Shown here one piece after another: positions 3,255 to 54,898 of a DNA stretch of 64,000 nt. Under the pieces are notes generated by a model. That model did no database searches. It had not been told where the DNA came from and worked only from the letters and a program-made list of their open reading frames with translations. Source of the stretch: Branchiostoma floridae (Eukaryota > Chordata > Leptocardii > Amphioxiformes > Branchiostomatidae); NCBI RefSeq assembly GCF_000003815.2, contig NC_049990.1:14987875-15051874 (forward strand). Direction: 5' to 3'. How positions within the stretch are numbered: position 1 is the first letter of the stretch; each line of letters opens with the position of its first letter. Made by a program: the position numbers and the translations under genes.

Positions 3255-3500
3255 TTAGACCAGATATTGTGGCATAGTTGGCAGCCTAAGAGGTTCCCGA
3301 ATCAAAACCTACCATTTTACTGATCTTGTGCCCTTACATTGGAAAGGCACTTAACAACAACATGACTTTCCTTACTTCACTCAGGTGAAAAATGCTGCTT
3401 TGTCTAAGGCTGTGCCTCGGATAGGACATTGAATGGAGGTCCCATGTTTGGGGAAAGCCACACCTTCAGCATGTAAAAGAACCCACTGCACAAAACAACA
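3255..3500 (+). repeat. SINE-like element, diverged second copy
   Basis: This copy shares the order tRNA-like head, short GCACTT-containing spacer and TTCACTCAGGTG body with the element at 2585-2935. It ends in a segment (ATTGAATGGAGGTCCCATG, then a GCCACACCTTCAGCATGTAA block) that recurs at 10545-10630 and, in the opposite direction, at 16025-16140. It is followed by a short CAACAA repeat. The boundaries are approximate. Confidence 0.45.
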
Positions 3501-3606: not shown

Positions 3607-6600
3607 TTTTTCCTCAAGAATGGGATAGAGTATGATCCAGAGTACCTCTTCTATGATGTTAAGGTGAGATCATTTGAGTTACATTCATTCCCAACAGAGG
3701 CTAAATGCATTTTAAAAGTTAGATAATTGAAATACATTACTTTTTGTATAACAAAAAAAGAAAATCGTGCCATATTCAATCTATATCATTTCTACAAAGT
3801 CTCTTTTGTCTTATTAAAACTTGTGCATACATTTATAACTTAACCCTTTTTTTGTGTAGGATTTGAGTTGAAGACTATACAGGTTTAATCAGAATGTATT
3901 GATGTGACTTTATAATGATGCAGCTACTTTGCCCTTTTAAAAGTTCTATCAAATTTCTCTTTCCAGAATGCAGTCATATCAGTGCACCTCAGTGGGGACA
4001 TGCACAAAGCTGTGGCAGAAGACATGGGTAAAGATCTTTAACTTAACTCTTCAAAGTAAAGTACTTAAGTCAAGAAAATTTGTTGTCCTGACTTGAATAA
4101 CTTGAATGACTGTGACACCTGTATTGCAGCGCCCCCTATCTGTGCTTGTCTGTAGTACAAGCATCTCACTTGTTGAAAATTTTCTTGTCAATTTTCTACA
4201 AAAAAAAGTCATGTACGTCAATTCAGGCTAGCATTTACTCCATACTTCACTATCATTGTTCATTGCATCCAATACAATCAAGCAGAAATAACATTGTGGT
4301 AAAAGTATGTGTCAAACAGTTAATCTGGCTGGAGAAGGGATTGTACATTTTATCTTTCCTTTCATAAACTGTCCTTTCCCCTTTTTGTTTGCTGTTCTTC
4401 TTTTGGATACTAGATTATTTCATTGCATGTTTACCAGATTTTTTCATGTCCAACAGACAGATACCTAGAGCGTGGAGAAGAGATAGCACAGTTGCTACGC
4501 AGACTGGCTGGGGCTGGGAAAAAACTCTTCCTCATCACTAACAGCCCCTTCTGGTTTGTGTAAGTACTGCAGCAGGAACTTCTTGTGTCGATAGATATCT
4601 CCGGATTATTACCACTGTGACAGTGGAAAAGGAGGTATCATTTATGGTCTGTGTGTTTTGGTTTGGGTCCATAGTTAATAGTGATTTGGATATTGTAGAG
4701 TGACAGGATGTGAGGTGGAAAATGGTGTAACTGGAGACTGGCAGGATAGAAAAGTTGGCTTGGCCCAGGTCCAAAGTTGGTCATGCAGGCTGGCAGACAA
4801 AAGCATTATACAGAATTAGCATTAGAAATACACAATAGTGAATAAAACAAGAATTCACAAATAAAAAATCTTTGATTTTTGGTTGTGTTGTGATGGCTTC
4901 TATCTTAAGTTAGTTAAAAGAATGTTCTGCAGCTACATGAAAACTAGCTATATGAATGAGTGAGTGAATGAATGAGTGAGTGAGTGAGTGTTACCAGTCT
5001 GAGAAATTCAATGTTCTGTTGATACAATCGTCAATGGAGTGTTGTTTTGTGATCATAGTTATTATTATTACTGTAGTAGTAACAGATCGTGCTTTGCTCT
5101 CAGTCTAGGTTTGGCCACTTAACCTTTCTATTAATAGATAAACTGAGTGGATTGTGCATTGACACCTGCTGTGAATGTAACAGTTGTTGTTTTTATGTCA
5201 TTCTACCCTTCCAGCCAGCGAGGTATGGAGTACATTGCTGGGCCCAGCTGGATGGAGATGTTTGATGTTGTCATTGCTGAGTCCAGGAAGCCAAAATTCT
5301 TCACTGATACAAAAAGGTAGGAAACACTTTCATTGTACTGATTTTAATGTATGTTAAATGACCTTTCAATGAGAGGATGTGACCACCCTGCAACCATTGA
5401 ATGACAAAGATTTCACATGCTCAATGAATGTCATAGATTAAGCAGGACCCTTTTTATGCTTCGATGTCTTTCTTTAAATTATACTTTGACATCTTGCACC
5501 ATATTCCTGAAATCATAAGTTAAACTTTAAGTCACAAAAATCCAGTTTTGGTTGCTGTATAATCACTCAGTGATCACCATCTATTGGAAAGGGGGCCTTT
5601 AGTTATCAGTTTTCTAACTTGTTATCTCAGCTAATTTATCAATTCATGTCAAAATACAATCAAAGCTGCACATTACGTCAAGAAGATCACTTAGGGGCAA
5701 ATAAAATCTGCTCTGTGTGGACACACAGCCGCCCTTCCAAAGCTCAGTCATACAGATGAAGCAGAGGAGAAATGCAGGAGAAACACACCAGGCAAAAAGA
5801 GAGCTATTTCCTGTGTGTTTCTTACCTTTTTTACCCAGTCAGAGAGCTTCTAATGTTTGTTTAAGAGGACATACAACGGACAACTTTCCTTTTCGCCAAT
5901 TAGAGACAGTGAATCTTATGTGTGCCTGTTGTGATTCTTGGTAATCAATCACCCTAGGAGGAGAGCTGGGCAGAGCTGATGGTCAACAGGCTCTTATCCT
6001 TATCTCTGCAGCTGATTAAGAGTGAAAAATCAATTATCATGGAAATTAGCTATGATTCCATTGGCTTTCCCTTCTGTTTCCCTCAGCCATGCATATGAAT
6101 CACATTGGAAAAGTGTTCCTGTATGCATCAACTGTATGACTGACTGAAGCTTGTGTCAATTGGAAAAATGATCTCCACCCAAAAGTGGTCACATTAGCCT
6201 GAGATGTCCTTATATAGTTATAATGTAGAGGTGGTCGTTTGTATAAAATTATGTTTGTATCATGAACAGTCCTCTTAGCTGACAGTACTGTTGTCTTGTT
6301 CACAGACCGTTCCGAGAAGTCAGTAAGACATCGGGTACCTGTAAGTTTGAGAGGGTGACGAGTCTGCGGAAGGGACAGGTGTATATCCAGGTGGGTAGAA
6401 TTTAGTACAGTTATGTGATTGTGTTCAATGACTGTATTATTTTACTCGTTCATTTCCTATGATCTACAAAATGTTGTGAGACTTGATAATAGAATACAGG
6501 GCCATGTACTGTAGATGCTCTGGTATAAGGAAGTAGGAAACTTTGAACTGTGATGTCAATGACTTGAAGATACGTGGAGATTGGTGAAAAGCTTGACGTA

Positions 6601-9600
6601 TGCAAGCTTTAATGTATAAAAAAAAGTTATTCACATTATAGTACATGTAAGTGATACACAGGGCAGCAAGTTTCCTTGCTATTTCTGTATCAGGGTTTAT
6701 TTTCTCAGGAAGGGGTTGCTAGCCCCTCTCCTTTAACGTGTATATAATATATAATATAGAAACAGGTAGATATCATAATGTTGCCCCTGACCAAAGGTTT
6801 GGCCCATTCTGTCCAAAGCAAATTGAAGATGAATTTCACTTTGTCATGATGTGCAGTAGGTATACTGTTTCACGTAATGAGTTATTCACATTCATCGAAT
6901 GAAGTACAACAGATTTTAAGAGACTCAATGCAACAGACAGATTTTCATTATATATTCAGATGTAACAACTCTCACAATGCTAAAATAGGTAAATATATAA
7001 AAGACTGCTTTGTCATAAGAAAAAATGCTGAAACACATACACATGTGATTAGCCCCACTCGGTTGTATTACAATATCAATGATTTAGGCTAGCTCTTATC
7101 GTTCTAGAAATTAGGATGTCAAATTTCATTCTATATTCATAATCTGCATATGTACTATGTTTAATACTTGTTTTAGTAATTAGGATGATAAGTTTGTTTC
7201 TTCTTTTTTTTTGCCATACATTGTACCATGTACGATCGTTGCGCAATAAAGTACTTCTATATAAAGCACCTCCTCAAACACTGGACGCCTATTTTACGTC
7301 TCTTCCAAAAGACACAGTGCAACACCTACCAAGATGTCCTGACGCCGGGACTTGAACCATAGTCTCCCAGTTACCAACAAATTAGAACAAAGGACCTCAA
7401 CTGTGAGCCTGCTACAAGTTGAGCCACAGGGACATCCCTGTATTCTTCTTGCTTACTTGTAATTATAATCAAAGTGATGAATAATACAGAAGCATTTCCA
7501 GACTTGAAAGCTTGACAACAATTTTCTCTGTACAGGGTAATCTTCAGGACTTCCGCCAGATGACAGGATGGTATGGTGCCAGGGTGCTGTACTTTGGGGA
7601 CCATGTCTACAGTGATTTAGCGGTAACTAGAATTATTATTAATAGTATTTGTAATCCTTGTTAATGAATCTTACATTCCACTAAACTCGATGTTGAATGA
7701 TGTTTTGTAGACTCGAGGAAAGAGATGAATATTGTTTAAGTATACATTTTGATTTACAGACGTCTAGACAGTGGGTCAACTCTGAAAGACAATGTTAAAC
7801 TTTATGATTGCAGGATCCATTCCTGAAGCATGGCTGGAGAACTGGTGCAATTATCCCAGAACTGGAGGTAGGAGCTTTCTCACTGTTGTTTGATGTGGAA
7901 AAATTGATGGTTTGATAAACAAAATAGCTCATATGTAAAGAATGGGATGACAGATTCATTTTGCATCCATTCCAGGATGAGATCAAGATCAGCAACTCCA
8001 CCAGCTATAAGGACACTATCTCCTGGTTACTGGCACTACAGGGGCTGATTGAGAGCCAACAGGTATGTGGTATAGAGTGTAGGACACTATCTCCTGGTTA
8101 CTGGCACTACAGGGGCTGATCGAGAGCCAACAGGTATGTGGTATAGAGTGTAGGACACTATCTCCTGGTTACTGGCACTACAGGGGCTGATCGAGAGCCA
8201 ACAGGTATGTGGTATAGAGTGTAGGACACTATCTCCTGGTTACTGGCACTACAGGGGCTGATTGAGAGCCAACAGGTATGTGGTATAGAGTGTAGGACAC
8301 TATCTCCTGGTTACTGGCACTACAGGGGCTGATCGAGAGCCAACAGGTATGTGGTATAGAGTGTAGGACACTATCTCCTGGTTACTGGCACTACAGGGGC
8401 TGATCGAGAGCCAACAGGTATGTGGTATAGAGACACTATCTCCTGGTTACTGGCACTACAGGGGCTGATCGAGAGTCAACAGGTATGTGGTATAGAGAGT
8501 AAAGGACACTATCTCCTGGTTACTGGCACTACGGGGGCTGATCGAGAGCCAACAGGTATGTGGTATAGAGTGTAGGACACTATCTCCTGGTTACTGGCAC
8601 TACAGGGGCTGATCGAGAGCCAACAGGTATGTGGTATAGAGTGTAGGACACTATCTCCTGGTGACTGGCACTACAGGGGCTGATCGAGAGCCAACAGGTA
8701 TGTGGTATAGAGTGTAGGACACTATCTCCTGGTTACTGGCACTACAGGGGCTGATCGAGAGCCAACAGGTATGTGGTATAGAGTGTAGGACACTATCTCC
8801 TGGTTCCTGGCACTACAGGGGCTGATCGAGAGCCAACAGGTATGTGGTATGGAGTGTAAAGGACACTATCTCCTGGTTACTGGCACTACAGGGGCTGATC
8901 GAGAGCCAACAGGTATGTGGTATAGAGTGTAAAGGACACTATCTCCTGGTTCCTGGCACTACAGGGGCTGATCGAGAGCCAACAGGTATGTGGTATAGAG
9001 TGTTAAGGACACTATCTCCTGGTTCCTGGCACTACAGGGGCTGATNNNNNNNNNNNNNNNNNNNNNNNNNNNNNNNNNNNNNNNNNNNNNNNNNNNNNNN
9101 NNNNNNNNNNNNNNNNNNNNNNNNNNNNNNNNNNNNNNNNNNNNNNNNNNNNNCACTATCTCCTGGTTACTGGCACTACAGGGGCTGATCGAGAGCCAAC
9201 AGGTATGTGGTATAGAGTGTAGGACACTATCTCCTGGTTACTGGCACTACAGGGGCTGATCGAGAGCCAACAGGTATGTGGTATAGAGTGTAGGACACTA
9301 TCTCCTGGTTACTGGCACTACAGGGGCTGATTGAGAGCCAACAGGTATGTGGTATAGAGTGTAGGACACTATCTCCTGGTTACTGGCACTACAGGGGCTG
9401 ATCGAGAGCCAACAGGTATGTGGTATAGAGTGTAGGACACTATCTCCTGGTTACTGGCACTACAGGGGCTGATCGAGAGCCAACAGGTATGTGGTATAGA
9501 GAGACTATCTCCCGCTTACTGGCACTACAGGGGCTGATCGAGAGTCAACAAGAATGTGGGATAGAGAGATAAGGACACTATCTCCTGGTTACTGGCACTA

Positions 9601-11972
9601 CGGGGGCTGATCGAGAGCCAACAAGTATGTGGTATAGAGTGAAAGACACTATCTCCTGGTTACTGGCACTACAGGGGCTGATCGAGAGCCAACAGGTATG
9701 TGGTATAGAGTGTAAGACACTATCTCCCGCTGACTGGCACTACAGGGGCTGATCGAGAGCCAACAGGTATGTGGTATAGAGTGTAGGACACTATCTCCTG
9801 GTTACTGGCACTACAGGGGCTGATCGAGAGCCAACAGGTATGTGGTATAGAGTGTAGGACACTATCTCCTGGTTCCTGGCACTACAGGGGCTGATCGAGA
9901 GCCAACAGGTATGTGGTATGGAGTGTAAAGGACACTATCTCCTGGTTACTGGCACTACAGGGGCTGATCGAGAGCCAACAGGTATGTGGTATAGAGTGTA
10001 AAGGACACTATCTCCTGGTTCCTGGCACTACAGGGGCTGATCGAGAGCCAACAGGTATGTGGTATAGAGTGTTAAGGACACTATCTCCTGGTTCCTGGCA
10101 CTACAGGGGCTGATCGAGAGCCAACAGGTATGTGGTATAGAGACACTATCTCCTGGTTACTGGCACTACAGGGGCTGATCGAGAGTCAACAGGTATGTGG
10201 TATAGAGTGTAGGACACTATCTCCTGGTTCCTGGCACTACAGGGGCTGATCGAGAGCCAACAGGTATGTGGTATAGAGTGTAGGACACTATCTCCTGGTT
10301 CCTGGCACTACAGGGGCTGATCGAGAGCCAACAGGTATGTGGTATAGAGTGTAAAGGACACTATCTCCTGGTTACTGGCACTACAGGGGCTGATCGAGAG
10401 CCAACAGGTATGTGGTATAGAGTGTAGGACACTATCTCCTGGTTACTGGCACTACAGGGGCTGATCGAAAGCCAACAGGTATGTGGTATAGACTGTGTCA
10501 ACATGATCAGTGAATTGGAACTGGCTTTGGGATTGACACAATCAGTTAAATGGAGGTCCTGTCCTGAGGAGAGCCACACCTCAAGCATGTAAAAGCCCAC
10601 CACACTTACTGGAAAAGTAGCGGTCCCTCCTAGTGTCAATGGATAAACTAGTCAATTAATCTGTCTGCTTGTACTCTTCAGTACAAAATACAAACCTGGT
10701 GTGTTATGCCTTAAGGCAATTTACCTGTAGTAAGTAAGTAAGACAGACATTAACAAACAAACATAACAAAAAGAATATGATTTGCAAACATCAGAAGCAG
10801 TGTTCTGATAATTTGATGGTTTCTCCCCAGAAGAGCAGACATGATGAGGCAGTGCAGGCTGTGGTACAGGAGTGGATGAAGGAGATGAGAGAACTCAGGT
10901 ATGCTGAATGTTTCTTCCTAATTATGATGTATTCCCTGGACATGTTGAGACAACTTAGAGCATTAAGGCTGGGAAATATGAAACTAGAAAAAGCAATGTG
11001 ATAGAACATTACAAATGTATACTCTCTGCCAAAGGTGTACATTTTATTCTGACCAACCAACCAACCAACCAGTCAATAGGCCGACCCTTTCTGTCCATCA
11101 CAATTATCAGTTCAACCAATGAGGTCATAGCAATTAGCAATTCTACCAATGAGAGAGCAGCTGCATGCCTGTCAAATATTTTACGTTAATATTTTGCATT
11201 TCTACGATTTGACAAAGTAGGCAGGGCTATCGGATCAGTCTCTTTACCTTGACTGAGGCAAAAATGGAACCCTTTATTTACTTTAAAATTTACAATATAT
11301 AATTATCCGATGTACAAGGTTTCTATAGACAAGAGTCCATATAACAGTTGTCCATGCCTGCATTATAATGAGTAACAATGTAATGATCGTTAACCACTAG
11401 TTCTATTGTCCGGGGCAAGTGCAATAGTCCCATCGGACAAGCTCATGTCCTATCCCACTTGCTTGATTGGGCAAGTAAGACTTTTCAATGAGTGATATTT
11501 TGACCTGCTTGTTACTTTTAGCACTCATGGCATCAAGCATTAGTCAACACAGAAAAATAGACTAGGCTGAGCCAATAATAAAAGAATTCCATTGCTGGAA
11601 GTAAAAATATATAGAAGCAAAAATTTGTTCTGGGCAAGTTAAGTTTTTATGTACTTGCCCAAAAGCACAAGTGAATTTTGGAAAACTTGTCCAACCCTGT
11701 CAGCAGTACCTACCTAGGACAGGTGTGATATTCTTTAAAAGTGTGTTTCAATGTTTGATTTTCATTCCAGACATTACACAAAGGATATCTTCAACCCCCA
11801 GTTCGGCAGCCTGTTCCGGACCCACCACAACCCCACCTACTTTTCCCGCCGCCTCATGCGATTCGCCGACATCTACACATCGTCTGTCGCCAACCTCCTC
11901 CACTTCCCGATCGACTACACGTTCTACCCGCGCCGGTCCGCGCTACCTCACGAGATCAACTACGACTCCTGA
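3607..11972 (+). CDS. NT5DC2/3: 5'-nucleotidase domain-containing protein (NT5DC2/NT5DC3 type), 3' ten exons
   Basis: Ten exons join in frame: 3607-3663, 3967-4027, 4457-4559, 5215-5316, 6306-6390, 7536-7622, 7814-7867, 7976-8062, 10831-10898 and 11771-11972 (stop). All have AG acceptors and GT donors, and together they give 301 residues. The protein belongs to the HAD-superfamily 5'-nucleotidase-like proteins. HAD motif II appears as LFLITNS in the third exon, a lysine-bearing region (SRKPKFF) in the fourth, and motif IV as YFGDHVYSD in the sixth. The aspartate nucleophile motif DxDxT belongs to an upstream exon outside the window. The C-terminus ([10 protein letters not shown] ... ADIYTSSV ... 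[12 protein letters not shown]) is the characteristic NT5DC2/3 tail. Substrate specificity of this subfamily is poorly known. I cannot separate NT5DC2 from NT5DC3. The intron after the eighth visible exon starts with a large minisatellite derived from that exon. Confidence 0.93.
4953..4991 (+). repeat. Short (GAATGAGT)n-type microsatellite in an NT5DC intron
   Basis: A run of GAAT and GAGT tetramers lies in the intron between exons 4457-4559 and 5215-5316. No other feature was seen there. Confidence 0.7.
6780..7260 (+). mobile_element. 3' relic of a non-LTR retrotransposon
   Basis: The plus-strand frame near 6798-6891 reads [17 protein letters not shown] then MCSRY and a downstream LFTF. This is the C-terminal Cys/His region and following segment found at the end of many non-LTR (CR1/L2-like) reverse transcriptase ORFs. 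The frame then breaks up. The segment ends in an AATAAAGTACTTC-like tail near 7245-7257. It is 5'-truncated and dead, and lies within an NT5DC intron. Confidence 0.65.
7270..7440 (-). repeat. tRNA-derived SINE (not a functional tRNA)
   Basis: Read on the minus strand, the segment has a box A (TGGCTCAACTTGTAG) near 7415-7430 and a good box B (GGTTCAAGTCC) near 7346-7356. A SINE body follows (GTCTTTTGGAAGAGACG, near 7300). The tRNA cloverleaf is degenerate. It lies just upstream of the NT5DC exon at 7536. Confidence 0.65.
8011..10495 (+). repeat. 71-bp minisatellite made of exon end plus splice donor
   Basis: The first unit begins inside the NT5DC exon 7976-8062 at 8011 and the second at 8082, giving a 71-bp period, with some units 66-72 bp. 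Each unit carries the last 52 bases of the exon, the donor context CAACAGGTATGT, and a short intron stretch (GGTATAGAGTGTA). Within each unit CACTACAG followed by 21 bases and GTATGT looks like a miniature acceptor, exon and donor. About 35 unit lengths fit between 8011 and 10495, including the 108-base gap. Variants such as GAGAGTCAACAG, TTCCTGG and GTAAAGG mark individual units. Confidence 0.95.
9046..9153. other. Assembly gap (108 N) inside the minisatellite
   Basis: A run of N interrupts the 71-bp array. The sequence on both sides is the same repeat, so the copy number and local order are not reliable here. Confidence 0.99.
10545..10630 (-). repeat. Fragment of a dispersed repeat (minus orientation)
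   Basis: AATGGAGGTCCTGTCCTGAG followed by GAGAGCCACACCTCAAGCAT matches, in reverse, the segment at 16025-16140 and its inverted copy at 41145-41210. It resembles the end of the SINE-like copy at 3255-3500. It lies between the minisatellite and the next NT5DC exon. Confidence 0.5.
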
Positions 11973-13680
11973 GTCTGGAAGGGATTTTAAAGGCAGATTT
12001 TAAAAGCATGCAATGCACACGGACAATAAGTGTTTATTGTCTTACATCTGATATGCAATCTATAACGGTGCACACACCAATTCTTCCGCAACAGGGGTCC
12101 GAGATGTCCGCAACAAAAATGTAACGAAAGGGTTTTGAGGGTCTGGGTTTGAGTTCAAATTTGTCATAATCTGCTGCGAAGTGGCATTTAATACTGGCAT
12201 GGCTGAAAAGCATAAGAAGTGATGTGTTTTTCGTGCTAATTGGTTTTGGGCCCGAGTGTCACTTCCTTGTATTTCTACGCGTTGGAAGTGATTCGCCCGT
12301 TGACCCAGATTCACCGTCCATATGCGTTCTGTGAGCCGTGTTGCTATGCCTCGCGCGTCGGGTTATTGTAAAAATCTCAGTGTTACGATTTTCTTTATTT
12401 TTTGCTTGATTAATCCTAGGTGTATTCTCTTTCCGACAATATCAGTCATTTTCATGACTAAACTATAGGTGATGGGTTTATTTCCACGTCAAAATTCCCA
12501 TTTTTTTGCATACTTTTGTACGTGAAAGAAAATTTCCTCCCCCAAAATTACGAAAAGTGGAGAGAGTAGAGAAACTGAAAACCGGCTGTTCTTAAAGCTG
12601 GAGTGATGCCCTTCATTCCCATATACGGCTTTTTTGCTTTAGATTTATTTTCTTGAAGAGACGGCCTCTCGACTTGAGGGTGCACAACAGACCCCAAATA
12701 AACTAGGGTGTGCACCGTTAACCTCACATAAAGTAGACATTGCATGGACTTGCCGACTAGAATAGACATCATATTCACTTGCTGGTCTCCACTTGTCTTT
12801 GATATACAAGCAGTGATCCATAATTTTGCGGCCTCACCAATACATAAGGTGCACAACTCAAATTTTTGATATAGTTTTGGAACATAAAGTTTATTTTGAA
12901 TGTGTAACAAAATGCACTTCATTGTAAGAGTCATTATGTTGCAGGTGACATTTAATTCAGTAATGTTAGGTGAGAGAGAAAAAAAAATGGAGCATTGAGC
13001 TGCAACCTGAGGTGTGCAGGTCAACTTGCTCTGCTGAAAGTCAGATACACAGTCCTGTACAAAGAGATTCCTCAAACATTTTGACATTGTCTTCATAGAT
13101 ATAATTATATGAGAAACACAGCCTAAATATCTCTGATCACAGTTCACCTTAAGTTTGTTTTCCAGCCACTTACCTAGTGATTTGAGTTGTACTCCTTATT
13201 TCTTGGTTAGGCTGCAAACGCATTCACCACCCTTCTAGTTTGTACAAGACCCATTGATTATCTCGCATCTTTTGTGCAATTTCTAAATACACGTAAAGTA
13301 GACATGTTGACTTACCAACTAGAATAAACGTCACAGTGACGTGCTGGTCTCTACTTTCCCTTGACTTATCAGTGGACTGTCCAAAGTGTGACGTGTGAAA
13401 TTTACGCACAATTGTAGGAAGTATCAGAGGCAAGATCACTAGCATAACTGTATAGATTTAAAGCTGTGGTAGTTTTGTAGTAGCACTGAGTGACAGACTA
13501 ATATGTGAAATTTATAATTTTCCCTCTGTTTTAGTCTCTAGTGTAAGAAATGTACTGTTACTTCAGTCCGTTCCCTAGTGTATGTGCAATGTGAAATTAC
13601 AAGGTTTAACTGCAAATTAAAATATCAAATTACCAAATCCTAGCCTGTCATTATTATGGTGTGTGATGGAATAGCCAACT
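11973..13680. other. NT5DC 3'-UTR and spacer with a diverged internal duplication
   Basis: This follows the NT5DC stop codon; the transcript end could not be located. Two diverged copies of one segment occur near 12725-12800 and 13285-13375, both containing AAAGTAGACAT and CTGGTCT with ACTAGAATA between them. A 199-codon open frame on the minus strand (12548-13147) overlaps the first copy but has no recognisable similarity or splice signals, and I do not call it a gene. Confidence 0.5.
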
Positions 13681-14290
13681 GAACGCCATCCATCATCGCC
13701 CACTAGTGATTCATATCCAAAGTGCAGGCCAATGTATCAGCACTGCGTGGTTACTGAACGGAAGGAAGAGCTCAACATTAGATGCGGTTATACGTGTCCT
13801 TGGTGCTGAACGCCATCCGACAACGACCTCTAGCGATTCATATCCAAAATGCAGGCCAATGTACCAGTACTGCTTGATTTCATTACTTGAGGAAGAGATC
13901 TAACGGTAGACGTGGTTATAGGTGTCTTTGGCGCTGAACACCATTCAACACCGGCCTCTAGCGATTCATATCCATATGTGCAGGTCAATTTACCAGCATT
14001 GCATGATTACCTGACCCGAGAAAGAAATTTAACGGTTGATGTAGAAATACCTGTCCTTGGTGCTGAACACCATCTAACACCGTCCTCTAGCGATCCATAT
14101 CCTAAGTGCGGGCCAATGTACCAGCACCGTTTGATTTCATTACACGAGGAAGAGATCTAACGGGAGATGTGGTTATACCTGTCTTTGGTGCTGAACACCA
14201 TCCAACACCACCCTCTAGCGATTCATATCCAAAGTGCAGGCCAATGTACCAGCACTGCATGGCTACTTGACCGCATGGGGTCGAATATAA
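13681..14290 (+). repeat. Five-copy tandem repeat, 127-129 bp period
   Basis: The landmark GATTCATATCC (GATCCATATCC in the fourth copy) occurs at about 13708, 13835, 13963, 14092 and 14220. Each unit runs: GGTTATACCTGTC, TTGGTGCTGAACGCCATCC, CCTCTAGC, GATTCATATCC, AAGTGCAGGCCAATGTACC, a CAGCACTGCATGG-like stretch and a variable end. Unit lengths are not multiples of three, so the partial open frames across it are incidental. Single copies of the core occur near 15030-15125, 28570-28660, 37660-37735, 42490-42590 and 57980-58080. Confidence 0.9.
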
Positions 14291-15584
14291 GGCACAAACA
14301 AAATACACGATACGAAACTTCATTTACAAAATTTTTAGATAGATGTTTGTTCATCTAGCTAGGACAGTAGTCTAAGTCTGGATACCACTGGGGTTATCCT
14401 ACAGTACATTTTTTCTATTTTTTTACTGGCACGAATTGAACGTCACCTGCTTGAATATATTACAGCTTCTAACATTGTCACATTGTTACATTGTCACTAA
14501 GATGAAATACATGAATACCCCGACGCCTCTGCAGTTTTTACGGCTATCAAACTGTTAACTAGCAAAACCGTACACGCAAACAGTAATCGTGAGTCTGTCG
14601 TTCGAAATATTTGATCTTCGCATTTTGTCTCACATAAATCGTTAACAAGTGATTAAAACACGGTGTTACAGCGCTGCTGTTGTGCTGGTTCATTTATCAA
14701 CATGATTGAGAAAGTAACAGCTTGCTGTATGTACTTGGGCCGCCCCGTCATTACCTTAATAACGTTATAGCTCTACTCTTCTGCACATTTCCTCTCAGAC
14801 CTGATCGCAACTGGGCGCGGTGTAGAAGCGCCGCCTAGATTACGGCAATGGTACTTCAGCGTGGTCACCTCTTGGGACGAAAGAATAACACTCAAAGTCG
14901 CAGGCCGATATTCATGTGTTGGAAAAGATAACAAAATGTCCATTACTCCTTGAACAAATCAGATCTGAGGCGTTTACAGAGAGATGTATACAGCTTGAGT
15001 GAAAAATGTAAACATTTCACAGTAGATTTGGCTATGCCAGTCCTTGGTGCTGAACGCCGTCCAACATCGTCCTTTAGCGATTTATATCCAATGTGCAGGC
15101 CAATGTAATGTACCAGCACTGCATGGCTTCTTGATCTGGCGTCAGTTTTGGTGAAGTATTCAGTGTTTTTGATTGAAGTTTCGAGGTCCGCCCCAAGGGT
15201 TAGGGGGTGGAGACAATTATAATGTCCAGTCTGAGAGCCATTGTCTGATAAAAACGAGAGCTACGACGAGTCAGTGACGTCAGGTTATCGCCTCTTCATG
15301 CTTCTAAAAACAACCAGCAGTACTCGAAAGATGAGTACTGGTGTAAACAGATGAAGACAATACACCGCCAGAACATTCGAGTCTTCTCTTGTGTTACGAG
15401 AATAAAGTGTCGCATCGGCGCAAACATTTTGAGAAAACAACAACAGTTGAACCCTACATTCTTTACAACGTTACCAACAGTCTGGTTTGTAAAGTTCTGA
15501 TCCAGGTGTTTGATTGACCGTTAAGCCATGTATGTGGGTGTCTGTTATGTATGTTATCCTTAGGCAAACGTTTAAAGGTGTCCA
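14291..15584. other. Spacer with one dispersed 128-bp-family copy
   Basis: No gene was seen. One copy of the dispersed CTTGGTGCTGAACGCC core lies near 15030-15125. The remainder is unique-looking AT-moderate DNA upstream of the receptor gene. Confidence 0.5.
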
Positions 15585-33333: not shown

Positions 33334-35272
33334 ATGACTCCTCTTAACGACGTTTTTGTTGGCGGCATCAGTAGCACTCTTGTCGGGTTGGTGATGTACG
33401 TGGTGGGGATAGCGACACCCGCCTGGGTCATTGATAGTAGATTGGGTCTACGACAAGAGTGGGGACTGTGGCAGAGATGTACAACAAACATCGCGGACAG
33501 AACCTGCGAAGGTTACGGAGGTAAGCCAGGGAATGGACGATCAAAGTCACATCGATCGAGTCATATTTTTTTGCTCTGTGACCGAAGGGTAACCTCAGGC
33601 GACAGAGTATTAGTTTTGTCAATGTAACGCGCGTGGGCATCTGTATCTGTATGTTCCCGTTGTCGTATTCGTATGTGGTTTGGCAGGTCCTCTGCACTGA
33701 GTTGGATGATGATGCATGTTGGGTCTTTTTCGCGGTAGCTGTTTTTATAACCAATGTAATAATTTCAGAAATTGCTCCTACAAAATGTACGTCTTTCGGT
33801 ATATTGGTTCAGTTCTGCGTTATCTAGGCCTTGCGGTGATTGGACACTGTCAAGCAGATGTTGCTTGATTTGCATGTTTTGTGCACGTCGTGTTGTCAGC
33901 TGTTCACAGCCGTCACTGTTGCGGCTGTTTATATGATGGTGTGTGTCTCAGGTATGCATTGTGAAGCTGTTTGGCTATTTTCATTTGGTGTCGTTCTTTT
34001 GAGAGGCTGATTTTGCTGTTTATGCGTACAGGATTTTGTTTACATTTGGCAGTAATAGGTACCTTAGCTTTTAAGTACGTTTTGGTATAACCGAGAATTA
34101 ATCAGCTCGAAAGAACGAGTCAAAAGTAAAACAATGCCAATGGGTTTTTATTCAGTATAGACATATGAACCAATGGCATTATTTTGTGACTCACCCTCCT
34201 ACATTTGTATCTATCGCACTACCTCATCTTTTGTTTGAAAATTTTAATCCCCCCATTTTTTTCGCAATTCTGTAGATATCAGTGATCTGACCGTTGCTCT
34301 CCATTTCACCCGTGCCTTTGCTGTGATCGGACCACTTCTGCTTATCGCTGGTGTTAACGTTGCTCTGGTCTTCTACGCCGAACACAAGAACTCCAACAAA
34401 GTCCAGAGGAAATATGGTGCCCTGATCATTGCTGGAGGTATGTTCTTATTATTATTCTGCTTCCAAAAAAGAAGTCAAACCCAACCTGTTTAGAAATAGC
34501 CAACACTAGTATTTGATTAGAATATTATTTATGACTGTCCATTGTCACTATGTGTATACCATGTACATGTACTTGCAATTAGCCCTCGGGCACGAACTTG
34601 CAAATAAACTTCCAATCAATTATTACCTCCACAAAATGTGTCATAGGGGTTATATTTTAGGCAGTGTTTGTCTTTCTGTATGTCTGTTGGTCAACAAGAG
34701 TAGTTTTATATTTGGCGTGTGACAAAAACTTGACATGATTAGATTTTTGGGCACCAAGTGGCTTCTGTTGGTACACCAACGGAACTTCCGGTTTTGGTAT
34801 CTCTTGTTTTGAACAAGCTATAGTCACGATTTTGGGGTGTTAGAGAGCTATTGTGCTTGGAAAAAGCAGGAAGGTTATATAACCTCCTTGCCCTTGGTAA
34901 AAGTGACTCACGTTTGGGCAACCCAGAGGTTAGTTCAGGAGTTGCAGGGGAGTTTTCTCATTTGAACATCGCACCGATAAAATTTTCCTTCAGTTGTAGG
35001 ATCTATGAATTGTTAACTAACTCATTACATTGATTTTATCAACAGGGGCATGTGGGGTAATTGCTACCGCCATCTTTGGGGTGGAATTGCGGAATGCCAT
35101 CGGGGTGAAACTGTCGATTCCTTTCGGCTACTCCTTCCACTTGACCTTGGTGCAGGGGTTGTTAACGGTAGGGGGAGGAGCCGTCATCATCGCTGACGGT
35201 CGCAGGGATGCAGAGGATCAGCAACCCGTGCAACGTGAAAAAGTCATTGCAATGAGAGAGTCTATCATTTAA
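33334..35272 (+). CDS. Claudin-like four-pass membrane protein A3
   Basis: Exons 33334-33520, 34276-34437 and 35046-35272 join in phase 1 to give 191 residues. The signature reads W31, GLW 44-46, C49 and C58. Hydrophobic segments near residues 13-30, 75-97, 110-130 and 145-165 give the four-pass topology. The tail ends ESII, a possible PDZ ligand. The gene is the best-preserved copy with the standard exon 1. Intron 2 holds a LINE 3' fragment (34452-34623) that is absent from B3, and the dispersed repeat module near 34740. Role inferred from family: junctional or epithelial membrane protein. Confidence 0.84.
34452..34623 (+). mobile_element. LINE 3' fragment in A3 intron 2, absent from B3
   Basis: The fragment carries the GTACTTGCAATTAGCCCTCG tail, then GAACTTGCAAATAAACTTCC, as at 17270-17395. 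The corresponding site in B3 (about 54250-54260) is uninterrupted, so the insertion postdates the array duplication or is allelic. Confidence 0.65.
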
Positions 35273-50012: not shown

Positions 50013-51078
50013 AACAGAATCCAAAATAATAAAGGAAAATCCATTTTATCCATAGTATCAAAACTGACCAGTGAGTTTAGCCTGCAAAAAGGGCGTGCAT
50101 TTGCCACGCAGGTACACCCCTTGGCAGACTTAACTCCTTGGCCAGTTTTGATGCTACCTTATGTCATCGTATATATATCGAAATATCACACATCCAAATT
50201 AGGGTTTTCTCACTCCATCTTCTCGAATTATATTTCATTCACATTACAACGAAAACTAACAGTAAACAGCAAACGTACCTTTGCCGGCCGTGAATATACA
50301 TTGCACCATTTGTATTGTAACCAGTAGTTTTACGTCTTCAGTTGTATAGTTTTCCCTTTGTCCTTGCCAATCAATACACCTAATTGCAATGGACTAAGAG
50401 TGCGTAATTTGCGTATGTATGTGTGAGTGTGATTGCATGCTTATTATATTTGCATACTTATATTTAAAATTTATCCCAGCTACTGGCAGGTCGACCGAGC
50501 AAACCTACTGGCATGCCCCAGCCACAGGGAGGGCGATCGCCCCCAAGTACTGAAAGGGCGATCGCCCCGAGCTACCGTCAGGGCGATCGCCCCTAACTAC
50601 TAGCAGGGCGATCGCCCCCAACTACCAGCAGGGCGATCGCCCCCAAGTACTGACAGGGCGATCGCCCCCAACTACAGGCAGGGCGACCACCCAAAGCTAC
50701 CAACAGGGCGATCGCCCCCAACTACCAGCAGGGCGATCGCCCCCAAGTACTGACAGGGCGATCGCCCCCAACTACAGGCAGGGCGACCACCCAAAGCTAC
50801 CAACAGGGCGATCGCCCCGGACTACAGGCAGGGCGATCGCCCCCAAGTATCCTTCACTTTTGTGAAATCAAGACGACACGACTAGACAATTCAGACTTTG
50901 TACGGGGCAATCGCCCCCACAAGTCACTATTCCCAGGACTCGAGTGTCTTGAAAAGTTGCATTCTAATCCAATATGGCTTGATTTTCAAAAAATTTCGCA
51001 CTGCGTTTTCTGATATCGATTATCAAGTCGAAAAAAAAGGAATAAAATGGATTTTCCTTTATTATTTTGGATTCTGTT
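50013..51078. mobile_element. 1.07-kb element with near-perfect 38-bp inverted ends
   Basis: The left end AACAGAATCCAAAATAATAA continues AGGAAAATCC; the right end is its complement. The flanks carry ATAT at 50009-50012 and 51079-51082, while A2 (near 32170) has one such site. The interior contains a GC-rich palindromic tandem array (50520-50850). No transposase was seen, so it is nonautonomous. Confidence 0.85.
50520..50850 (+). repeat. Tandem array of GGGCGATCGCCC palindromes
   Basis: Thirteen units of about 24 bases, eleven with the perfect 12-base palindrome GGGCGATCGCCC and two with GGGCGACCACCC. Spacers vary among CAACTACCAGCA, CAAGTACTGACA and similar. A four-unit block is repeated once, indicating expansion by block duplication. 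GC content is far above the surroundings. Confidence 0.93.
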
Positions 51079-53139: not shown

Positions 53140-54898
53140 ATGACCCCTCTTAACGACGTTTTTGTTGGCGGCATCAGTAGCACTCTTGTCGGGTTGGTGA
53201 TGTACGTGGTGGGGATAGCGACACCCGCCTGGGTCATTGATAGTAGATTGGGTCTACGACAAGAGTGGGGACTGTGGCAGATATGCACAACAAACATCGC
53301 GGACAGAACCTGCGAAGGTTACGGAGGTAAGCCAGGGAATGGACGATCAAAGTCACATCGATCGAGTCATATTTTTTTGCTCTGTGACCGGAGGGTAACC
53401 TCAGGCGACAGAGTATTAGTTTTGTCAATGTAACGCGCGTGGGCATCTGTATCTGTATGTTCCCGTTGTCGTATTCGTATGTGGTTTGGCAGGTCCTCTG
53501 CACTGAGTTGGATGATGATGCATGTTGGGTCTTTTTCGCGGTAGCTGTTTTTATAACCAATGTAATAATTTCAGAAATTGCCCCTACAAAATGTACGTCT
53601 TTCGGTATATTGGTTCAGTTCTGCGTTATCTAGGCCTTGCGGTGATTGGACACTGTCAAGCAGATGTTGCTTGATTTGCATGTTTTGTGCACGTCGTGTT
53701 GTCAGCTGTTCACAGCCGTCACTGTTGCGGCTGTTTATATGATGGTGTGTGTCTCAGGTATGCATTGTGAAGCTGTTTGGCTATTTTCTTTTGGTGTCGA
53801 TCTTTTGAGAGGCTGATTTTGCTGTCTATGCGTACAGGATTTTGTTTACATTTGGCAGTAATAGGTACCTTAGCTTTGTATTGTACGTGTTGGTATAACC
53901 GAGAATTAATCAGCTCGAAAGAACGAGTCAAAAGTAAAACAATGGGTTTTTATTCAGTATAGACATATGAACCAATGGCATTATTTTGTGACTCACCCTC
54001 CCACATTTGTATCTATCGCACTACCTCATCTTTTGTTTGAAAATTTTAATCCCCCCCAAATTTTTCTCAATTCTGTAGATATCAGTGATCTTACCGCTGC
54101 CTTCCATTTCACCCGTGCCTTTGCTGTGATCGGACCCCTTCTGCTTGTCGCTGGTGTTAACGTTGCTCTGGTCTTCTACGCCGAACACAAGAACTCCAAC
54201 AAAGTCCAGAGGAAATATGGTGCCCTGATCATTGCAGGAGGTATGTTCTTATTATTACCAACACAAAATGTGTCATAGGGGTTATATTTTAGGCAGTGTT
54301 TGTCTTTCTGTATGTCTGTTGGTTAACGAGAGTAGTTTTATATTTTGTGTGTGACAAAAGCTTGACATGATTAGATTATTGGGCACCAAGTGGCTTCTGT
54401 TGGTACAGCAACGGAACTACCGGTTTTGGTATCTCTTGTTTTGAACAAGCTATAGTCACGATTTTGGGGTGTTAGAGAGCTATTGTGCTTGGAAAAAGCA
54501 AGAAGGTTATATAACCTCCTTGGTAAAAGTGACTCAAGTTTGGGCCACCCAGAGGTTAGTTCAGGAGTTGCAGGGGAGTTTTCTCATTTGACCATCGCAC
54601 CGATAAAATTTTCCTTCAGTTGTAGGATCTAAGAATTGTTAACTAACTCATCACATTGATTTTATCAACAGGGGCATGTGGGGTAATTGCTACCGCCATC
54701 TTTGGGGTGGAATTGCGGAATGCCATCGGGGTGGAACTGTCGATTTCTTTCGGCTACTCCTTCCACTTGACCTTGGTGCAGGGGTTGTTAACGGTAGGGG
54801 GAGGAGCCGTCATCATCGCTGACGGTCGCAGGGATGCAGAGGATCAGCAACCCGTGCAACGTGAAGAAGTTACTGTAATGAGAGAGCCTATTATTTAA
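53140..54898 (+). CDS. Claudin-like four-pass membrane protein B3 (copy of A3)
   Basis: Exons 53140-53326, 54079-54240 and 54672-54898 join in phase 1 to give 191 residues. The signature is W31, GLW 44-46, C49 and C58. Differences from A3 include I for R after GLWQ, LSISFGYS for LSIPFGYS, and the C-terminus REPII for RESII. The last change replaces the serine of the presumed PDZ ligand. Intron 2 lacks the LINE fragment seen in A3. The upstream 1 kb contains the piggyBac-like element, which pushes distal upstream DNA away from the conserved 5' block. Confidence 0.83.

Follow-up and report, generated by a model that had tools for sequence, protein, structure and literature searches.

We analyzed a window of 64,000 nucleotides of Branchiostoma floridae DNA (NC_049990.1, positions 14,987,875 to 15,051,874 of the forward strand; unless otherwise given, coordinates are those of the window). 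It contains the ten 3' exons of a gene that looks like a member of the 5'-nucleotidase family of the NT5DC type (Table 1), and which we take to belong to the NT5DC2/3 subfamily. In the predicted product, 99 residues joined from exon 7976-8062 and its neighbouring exons matched PF05761 (E 2.6e-26), and the best PDB match was cytosolic purine 5'-nucleotidase (E 5e-37). With NCBIfam TIGR02244 the predicted protein, which is without the N-terminal part, scored 217.7 bits, under the whole-protein cut-off of 237.15. The beginning of the family profile matched at two places on the same strand, approximately 32 kb upstream of the window (C12:14954581-14955638), and these are probably the 5' exons of the gene. 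Inspection by eye of an NT5C2-like paralogue on C4 showed that the matching stretch is intronless there and that the other intron positions of this paralogue differ too.

Table 1. Positions of the nucleotidase exons and of the tandem array in the window.
Feature	Position	Strand	Remarks
Ten 3' exons, NT5DC-type gene	3607-11973	+	one open frame through to stop
Exons 1-5 of ten	3607-3663, 3967-4027, 4457-4559, 5215-5316, 6306-6390	+	
Exons 6-10 of ten	7536-7622, 7814-7867, 7976-8062, 10831-10898, 11771-11973	+	
NT5DC-type exon, 87 bp	7976-8062	+	open frame, phase 0; acceptor CATTCCAG, donor CAG|GTATGT
Next exon	10831-10898	+	joined in phase 0 to 7976-8062
Mirage minisatellite	8012-10496	+	mostly 71-bp (65/71/73) units; from TRF, unit split and donor list
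Assembly gap inside the array, 108 N	9046-9153	.	
In-register repeat of 8085-9045	9154-10114	+	961 bp, 14 mismatches, ungapped comparison
Intron remainder outside the array	10497-10830	+	ends at the acceptor before 10831

A tandem array starts within the 87-bp exon, which was predicted from reading frame, splice signals and family match, and extends into the following intron. TRF placed it at 8010-10496 (period 71, 35.0 copies, score 3681), and we cut it into 34 units, 32 of them without N, with sizes of 65, 71 or 73 bp and a final unit of 69 bp. Each unit consists of 51 exonic bases, which are the last 51 bases of the exon (55 in the inferred founder), then the 5' splice site with 14-22 bases of the intron. 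A first, sequence-only reading had described this array as a 71-bp minisatellite amplifying an exon end together with its splice donor, and TRF, the unit split and the donor list agree with that description. Thirty-three donor positions were readable: 31 read CAGGTATGT, with an exact CAG|GTATGT, one reads CAAGTATGT, and one, in which the GT is lost, reads CAAGAATGT. The motif CACTAC(A/G)G occurs 34 times, with AG in 32 sites and GG in 2. All but one of the 32 AG sites lead into a 21-base segment and a donor position (GT at 30/31), the remaining one being truncated by the N gap. The 31 segments uncut by N are all in frame and encode GLIESQQ, as the same reading had proposed for the acceptor-like CACTACAG and the bases that follow it. 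A search of the 513-Mb genome with the array unit returned at least 34 matches, all inside 8012-10496 (very common words are skipped in this search, which makes match counts lower bounds), and the possibility that the unit is a dispersed repeat was thus rejected. Among the 18 merged tandem arrays of the window, one overlaps nucleotidase exons, the only exons mapped.

Tandem repeats lying over exon-intron boundaries have been described in amphioxus as "mirages", in Adh3 and in the globin genes BflGb6 and BflGb9 (PMC3087553), and a passage of PMC3902484 adds troponin C (TnC) and likens repeats of PGBD5 to mirages. Partial exons with splice sites are also described in amphioxus VCBP3 introns (PMC2632668). 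The array studied here shares with mirages the near-identical, head-to-tail units of minisatellite size that cross an exon-intron boundary (here that of a predicted exon) and repeat its splice signal, and anatomically it is a mirage. Its 71-bp period falls within the 10-72 bp quoted for the units of the Adh3 mirage, whereas the two haplotypes quoted for BflGb6 have 6 and 3 units and the NT5DC array repeats the 5' splice site approximately 20 times, or has 34 units as assembled. Among the papers listed in searches of the openly licensed literature, we recognised none that treats the array at 8012-10496. We regard this array as a new and large case of a published kind, which is modest as a discovery and adds a long example to the amphioxus mirages.

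We computed the reading frame for each donor, with the splice consensus and the rule of nonsense-mediated decay as background. Productive mRNA would be formed by joining the first donor (8062/8063) to 10831. Any later donor would place a stop within the first unit that is inserted, and the computation put the first stop at the same codon for all 32 later donors, which confirms the earlier proposal that a later donor used without micro-exon splicing leads to a stop. By arithmetic, at least 82 nt separate this stop from the last exon junction in later-donor transcripts. Decay is therefore expected under the usual rule, and transcripts of this type would probably not survive it. With 20 to 31 strong and identical 5' splice sites one after another, the intron constitutes a natural experiment on how the spliceosome selects the first among many equal donors, and the stop that follows each later donor provides a built-in readout.

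For published mirages, regular splicing is suggested by Adh3 data and by globin RT-PCR (PMC3087553), and it is stated in a passage of PMC3902484 that the Adh and TnC mirages generate no aberrant mRNAs. Length instability is described for the Adh3 and BflGb6 mirages (PMC3087553). We consider it very probable that the NT5DC array is an amphioxus mirage, a boundary-crossing minisatellite that lies within an intron and leaves the first donor in use. Most likely, the array is inert, unstable and intronic, and it would probably be removed with the intron leaving the protein unchanged. The describers of mirages also point out that copied AG/GT signals could serve as cryptic sites and give alternative transcripts (PMC3087553). 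Several observations weigh against the use of the first donor alone. One lancelet PGBD5 gene model took the repeats as exon, which the authors of PMC3902484 omitted as lacking transcript support. In humans, internal tandem repeats at exon-intron boundaries of genes in segmental duplications can change splicing (PMC2812944). What these human repeats share with the NT5DC array is the expansion of a minisatellite at the boundary; they have average units of 30 bp in 4 copies and belong to recent paralogues, and for some of them the formation of new introns is reported, supported by transcripts (PMC2812944).

A further observation is the sequence of the donors themselves, which we scored with matrices that were built from one gene (10 acceptors and 9 donors) and are accordingly crude. 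The repeated donor has the top score among the 9 donors of the gene, and none of the 356 other GTs examined reaches it. Therefore, the 9-base site does not favour the first copy. Three units (8012-8224 only) were folded, and the fold was less stable than those of shuffled sequences (z +2.2), 196/200 shuffles folding at least as well. Structure thus does not obviously hide the copies, and RNA structure hiding the later donors was rejected for this stretch. The first donor is distinguished neither by its 9-base site nor by the single computed fold, and the puzzle raised by the sequence-only reading, how the machinery would choose it, is real. CAACAG|GTATG was also considered as a recursive-splicing acceptor and rejected, the three commonest forms (30 sites) scoring -3.97, -0.87 and -3.44.

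The ends of the units suggest how the array may have grown. Two of the 32 complete units end in GAGTGTTAAG (GAGTGT+TAAG), which corresponds to the start of the intron followed by the four exon bases that lie just before the unit (TAAG). One more unit, located in the block where the two halves of the array differ, ends in GAGAGATAAG and matches five exon bases. Seventeen complete units end in GAGTGTAG and five in GAGTGTAAAG. In the exonic part of the 32 complete units (51 columns), substitutions occur at 10 columns and there is no length change; all length variation is at the intronic end of the units, although the events are few and this may be chance. The simplest history would be a 73-bp founder (55 exonic and 18 intronic bases) that was shortened later. 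According to this history, a stretch of approximately 73 bp crossing the exon-intron boundary (approximately 55 exonic bases from 8008 plus 18 intronic bases) would have been duplicated head-to-tail. Slippage, unequal exchange or conversion would then have amplified the copies and homogenised them, and small deletions would have reduced units to 71 and 65 bp. Since the upstream exon stays intact in the first copy and the original intron follows from the last one, the array would end up inside the intron.

The describers of mirages proposed that they are raw material for new introns (PMC3087553). A related route is the Rogers model, in which an intron is gained via tandem duplication of an exon segment bearing AGGT, with cases given in PMC4974935. 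The NT5DC array shares with that model the duplication of a segment that carries AGGT and the conversion of copied exon sequence into intronic sequence (PMC4974935), and it differs in that the NT5DC unit already overlaps an intron.

The number of units is uncertain, 34 as assembled and about 20 if a large internal repeat is one block. Positions 8085-9045 and 9154-10114, on the two sides of the 108-N gap, are of equal length, carry the unit variants in the same order and are identical at 947/961 positions. All 14 mismatches sit within 228 bp (8434-8661), and 0/200,000 random placements were equally clustered. For scale, the SNP polymorphism given for Chinese amphioxus is 4.39% (PMC4284660). Three origins would fit this picture: duplication of a block that then had one patch converted, a contig overlap left unmerged, or two haplotypes joined in sequence. 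If the 961-bp repeat is one block, the array measures 1416 bp with approximately 20 units and 20 exact donors. The earlier count of 30 or more donors thus holds for the assembly, where 31 are exact, and may be inflated in the animal; the sequence-only reading mentioned neither this possible false duplication nor the published mirages. We lean slightly towards the view that part of the array is a product of assembly, overlapping contigs or haplotypes having been abutted at the gap, and that the true array has approximately 20 units. Apart from the register, the shared order of variants and the confined mismatches, this view is favoured by the fact that a copy of the array elsewhere in the assembly was not found in the search that skips very common words. 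Against it, a block of approximately 15 units that was duplicated recently, with conversion of one patch, would look no different, and the offset by itself cannot separate artefact from block duplication. The array itself is no artefact, since 19 units lie to the right of the gap (the first without two bases). This question touches the copy number only, and an assembly product is compatible with the mirage reading.

A regulatory role of the donors as decoys appears very improbable. According to this explanation, the copies would vie for U1 snRNP or divert transcripts into unproductive splicing, and array length would tune the amount of productive NT5DC mRNA. The presence of 31 identical strong donors within one intron and the early stop that follows from all 32 later donors speak for it, but the length of a minisatellite is expected to differ between alleles, as published for Adh3 and BflGb6 (PMC3087553), which argues against a tuned function.

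The last alternative is a ladder of micro-exons, in which splicing would sometimes include the 21 bases that separate CACTACAG from the next donor and so add GLIESQQ heptads in frame to a variable region of the enzyme. If this were true, some transcripts would carry one or more heptads, helix length would be set by an unstable minisatellite, and it would vary by allele, animal and even cell. All 31 segments uncut by N would allow it, and the join sits in a weakly conserved part of the alignment with cytosolic purine 5'-nucleotidase. As an acceptor, CACTACAG scores 6.25 at 21/32 sites and 3.48 to 5.28 at the other 11, which is within the range of the ten real acceptors of the gene (-1.09 to 13.0); 8/315 other AGs reach 6.25. 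Regarding coding, substitutions are synonymous at all 4 variable columns of the last 21 bases and at none of the 6 upstream, which are nonsynonymous or, in one case, turn the codon into a stop. However, this contrast (1 in 210) was noticed post hoc and, given the same base changes, is non-significant (P = 0.06); one of the four synonymous columns is a G-to-A change in two units with damaged donors, and without it P = 0.15. Over the 51 exonic columns, 4/10 variable columns are synonymous versus 3.0 expected (P(4 or more) = 0.35), and we rejected the idea that a coding role maintains the exonic copies. In addition, introns between neighbouring units would measure 44-52 nt in 30/32 cases and 123 nt in the other 2, against 108 nt for the shortest of the gene's 9 introns in the window; the splice scores derive from 10 acceptors and 9 donors, and regular splicing is reported for published mirages (PMC3087553, PMC3902484). 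The suggestion of variable proteins produced from the array is unsupported: published mirages are reported or inferred to splice normally, and the exonic copies show no overall sign of coding constraint. Among the explanations weighed here we give the micro-exon ladder the least credence, marginally below the decoy donors.

We also surveyed other genes of the same genome for mirages, at 39 exon-match loci (globin, 9/9 matches, and myosin head, the 30 best of 142 matches) and with TRF periods of at least 15. Two of the 39 loci were flagged, which is no fair estimate of frequency. At the globin locus (L035 954-1601), a 158-bp x 4.2 array lies, by eye, over an intron end and the start of the exon, and it resembles the published BflGb6 mirage, the globin mirages having units of 150-160 and 157 bp (PMC3087553). 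This locus counts in favour of the mirage reading and, indirectly, of the amphioxus origin of the genome. The array at the myosin locus (L037) lies within 30 bp of the exon match and, on reading, ends short of it.

Tandem arrays were also observed at nucleotidase loci and their flanks. A 140-bp x 3.0 array with 98% matches lies near exons of the NT5C2-like paralogue (L009 72-487, C4:13659906-13660321); L017 and L024 also have arrays of 140 bp x 3.0, and there are arrays of 52 bp x 2.1 in L022 and L025 and of 87 bp x 1.9 in L023. L026 has several, among them one of 96 bp x 3.0. In the window, a 128-bp x 4.5 array (13679-14258) follows shortly after the nucleotidase gene, with a similar stretch seen by eye at approximately 15045-15125. 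In the intron after the mirage, positions 10545-10647 resemble 16114-16008 (80%) and 3429-3486 (81%), perhaps as a dispersed repeat. Further along the window, 50516-50849 is a minisatellite whose 25-bp units are based on GGGCGATCGC(C), and it shows higher-order periods of 50 and 100 bp. Two near-identical open stretches of 126 codons on the minus strand, approximately 20 kb apart (33428-33808 and 53234-53614), are probably copies of one dispersed repeat.
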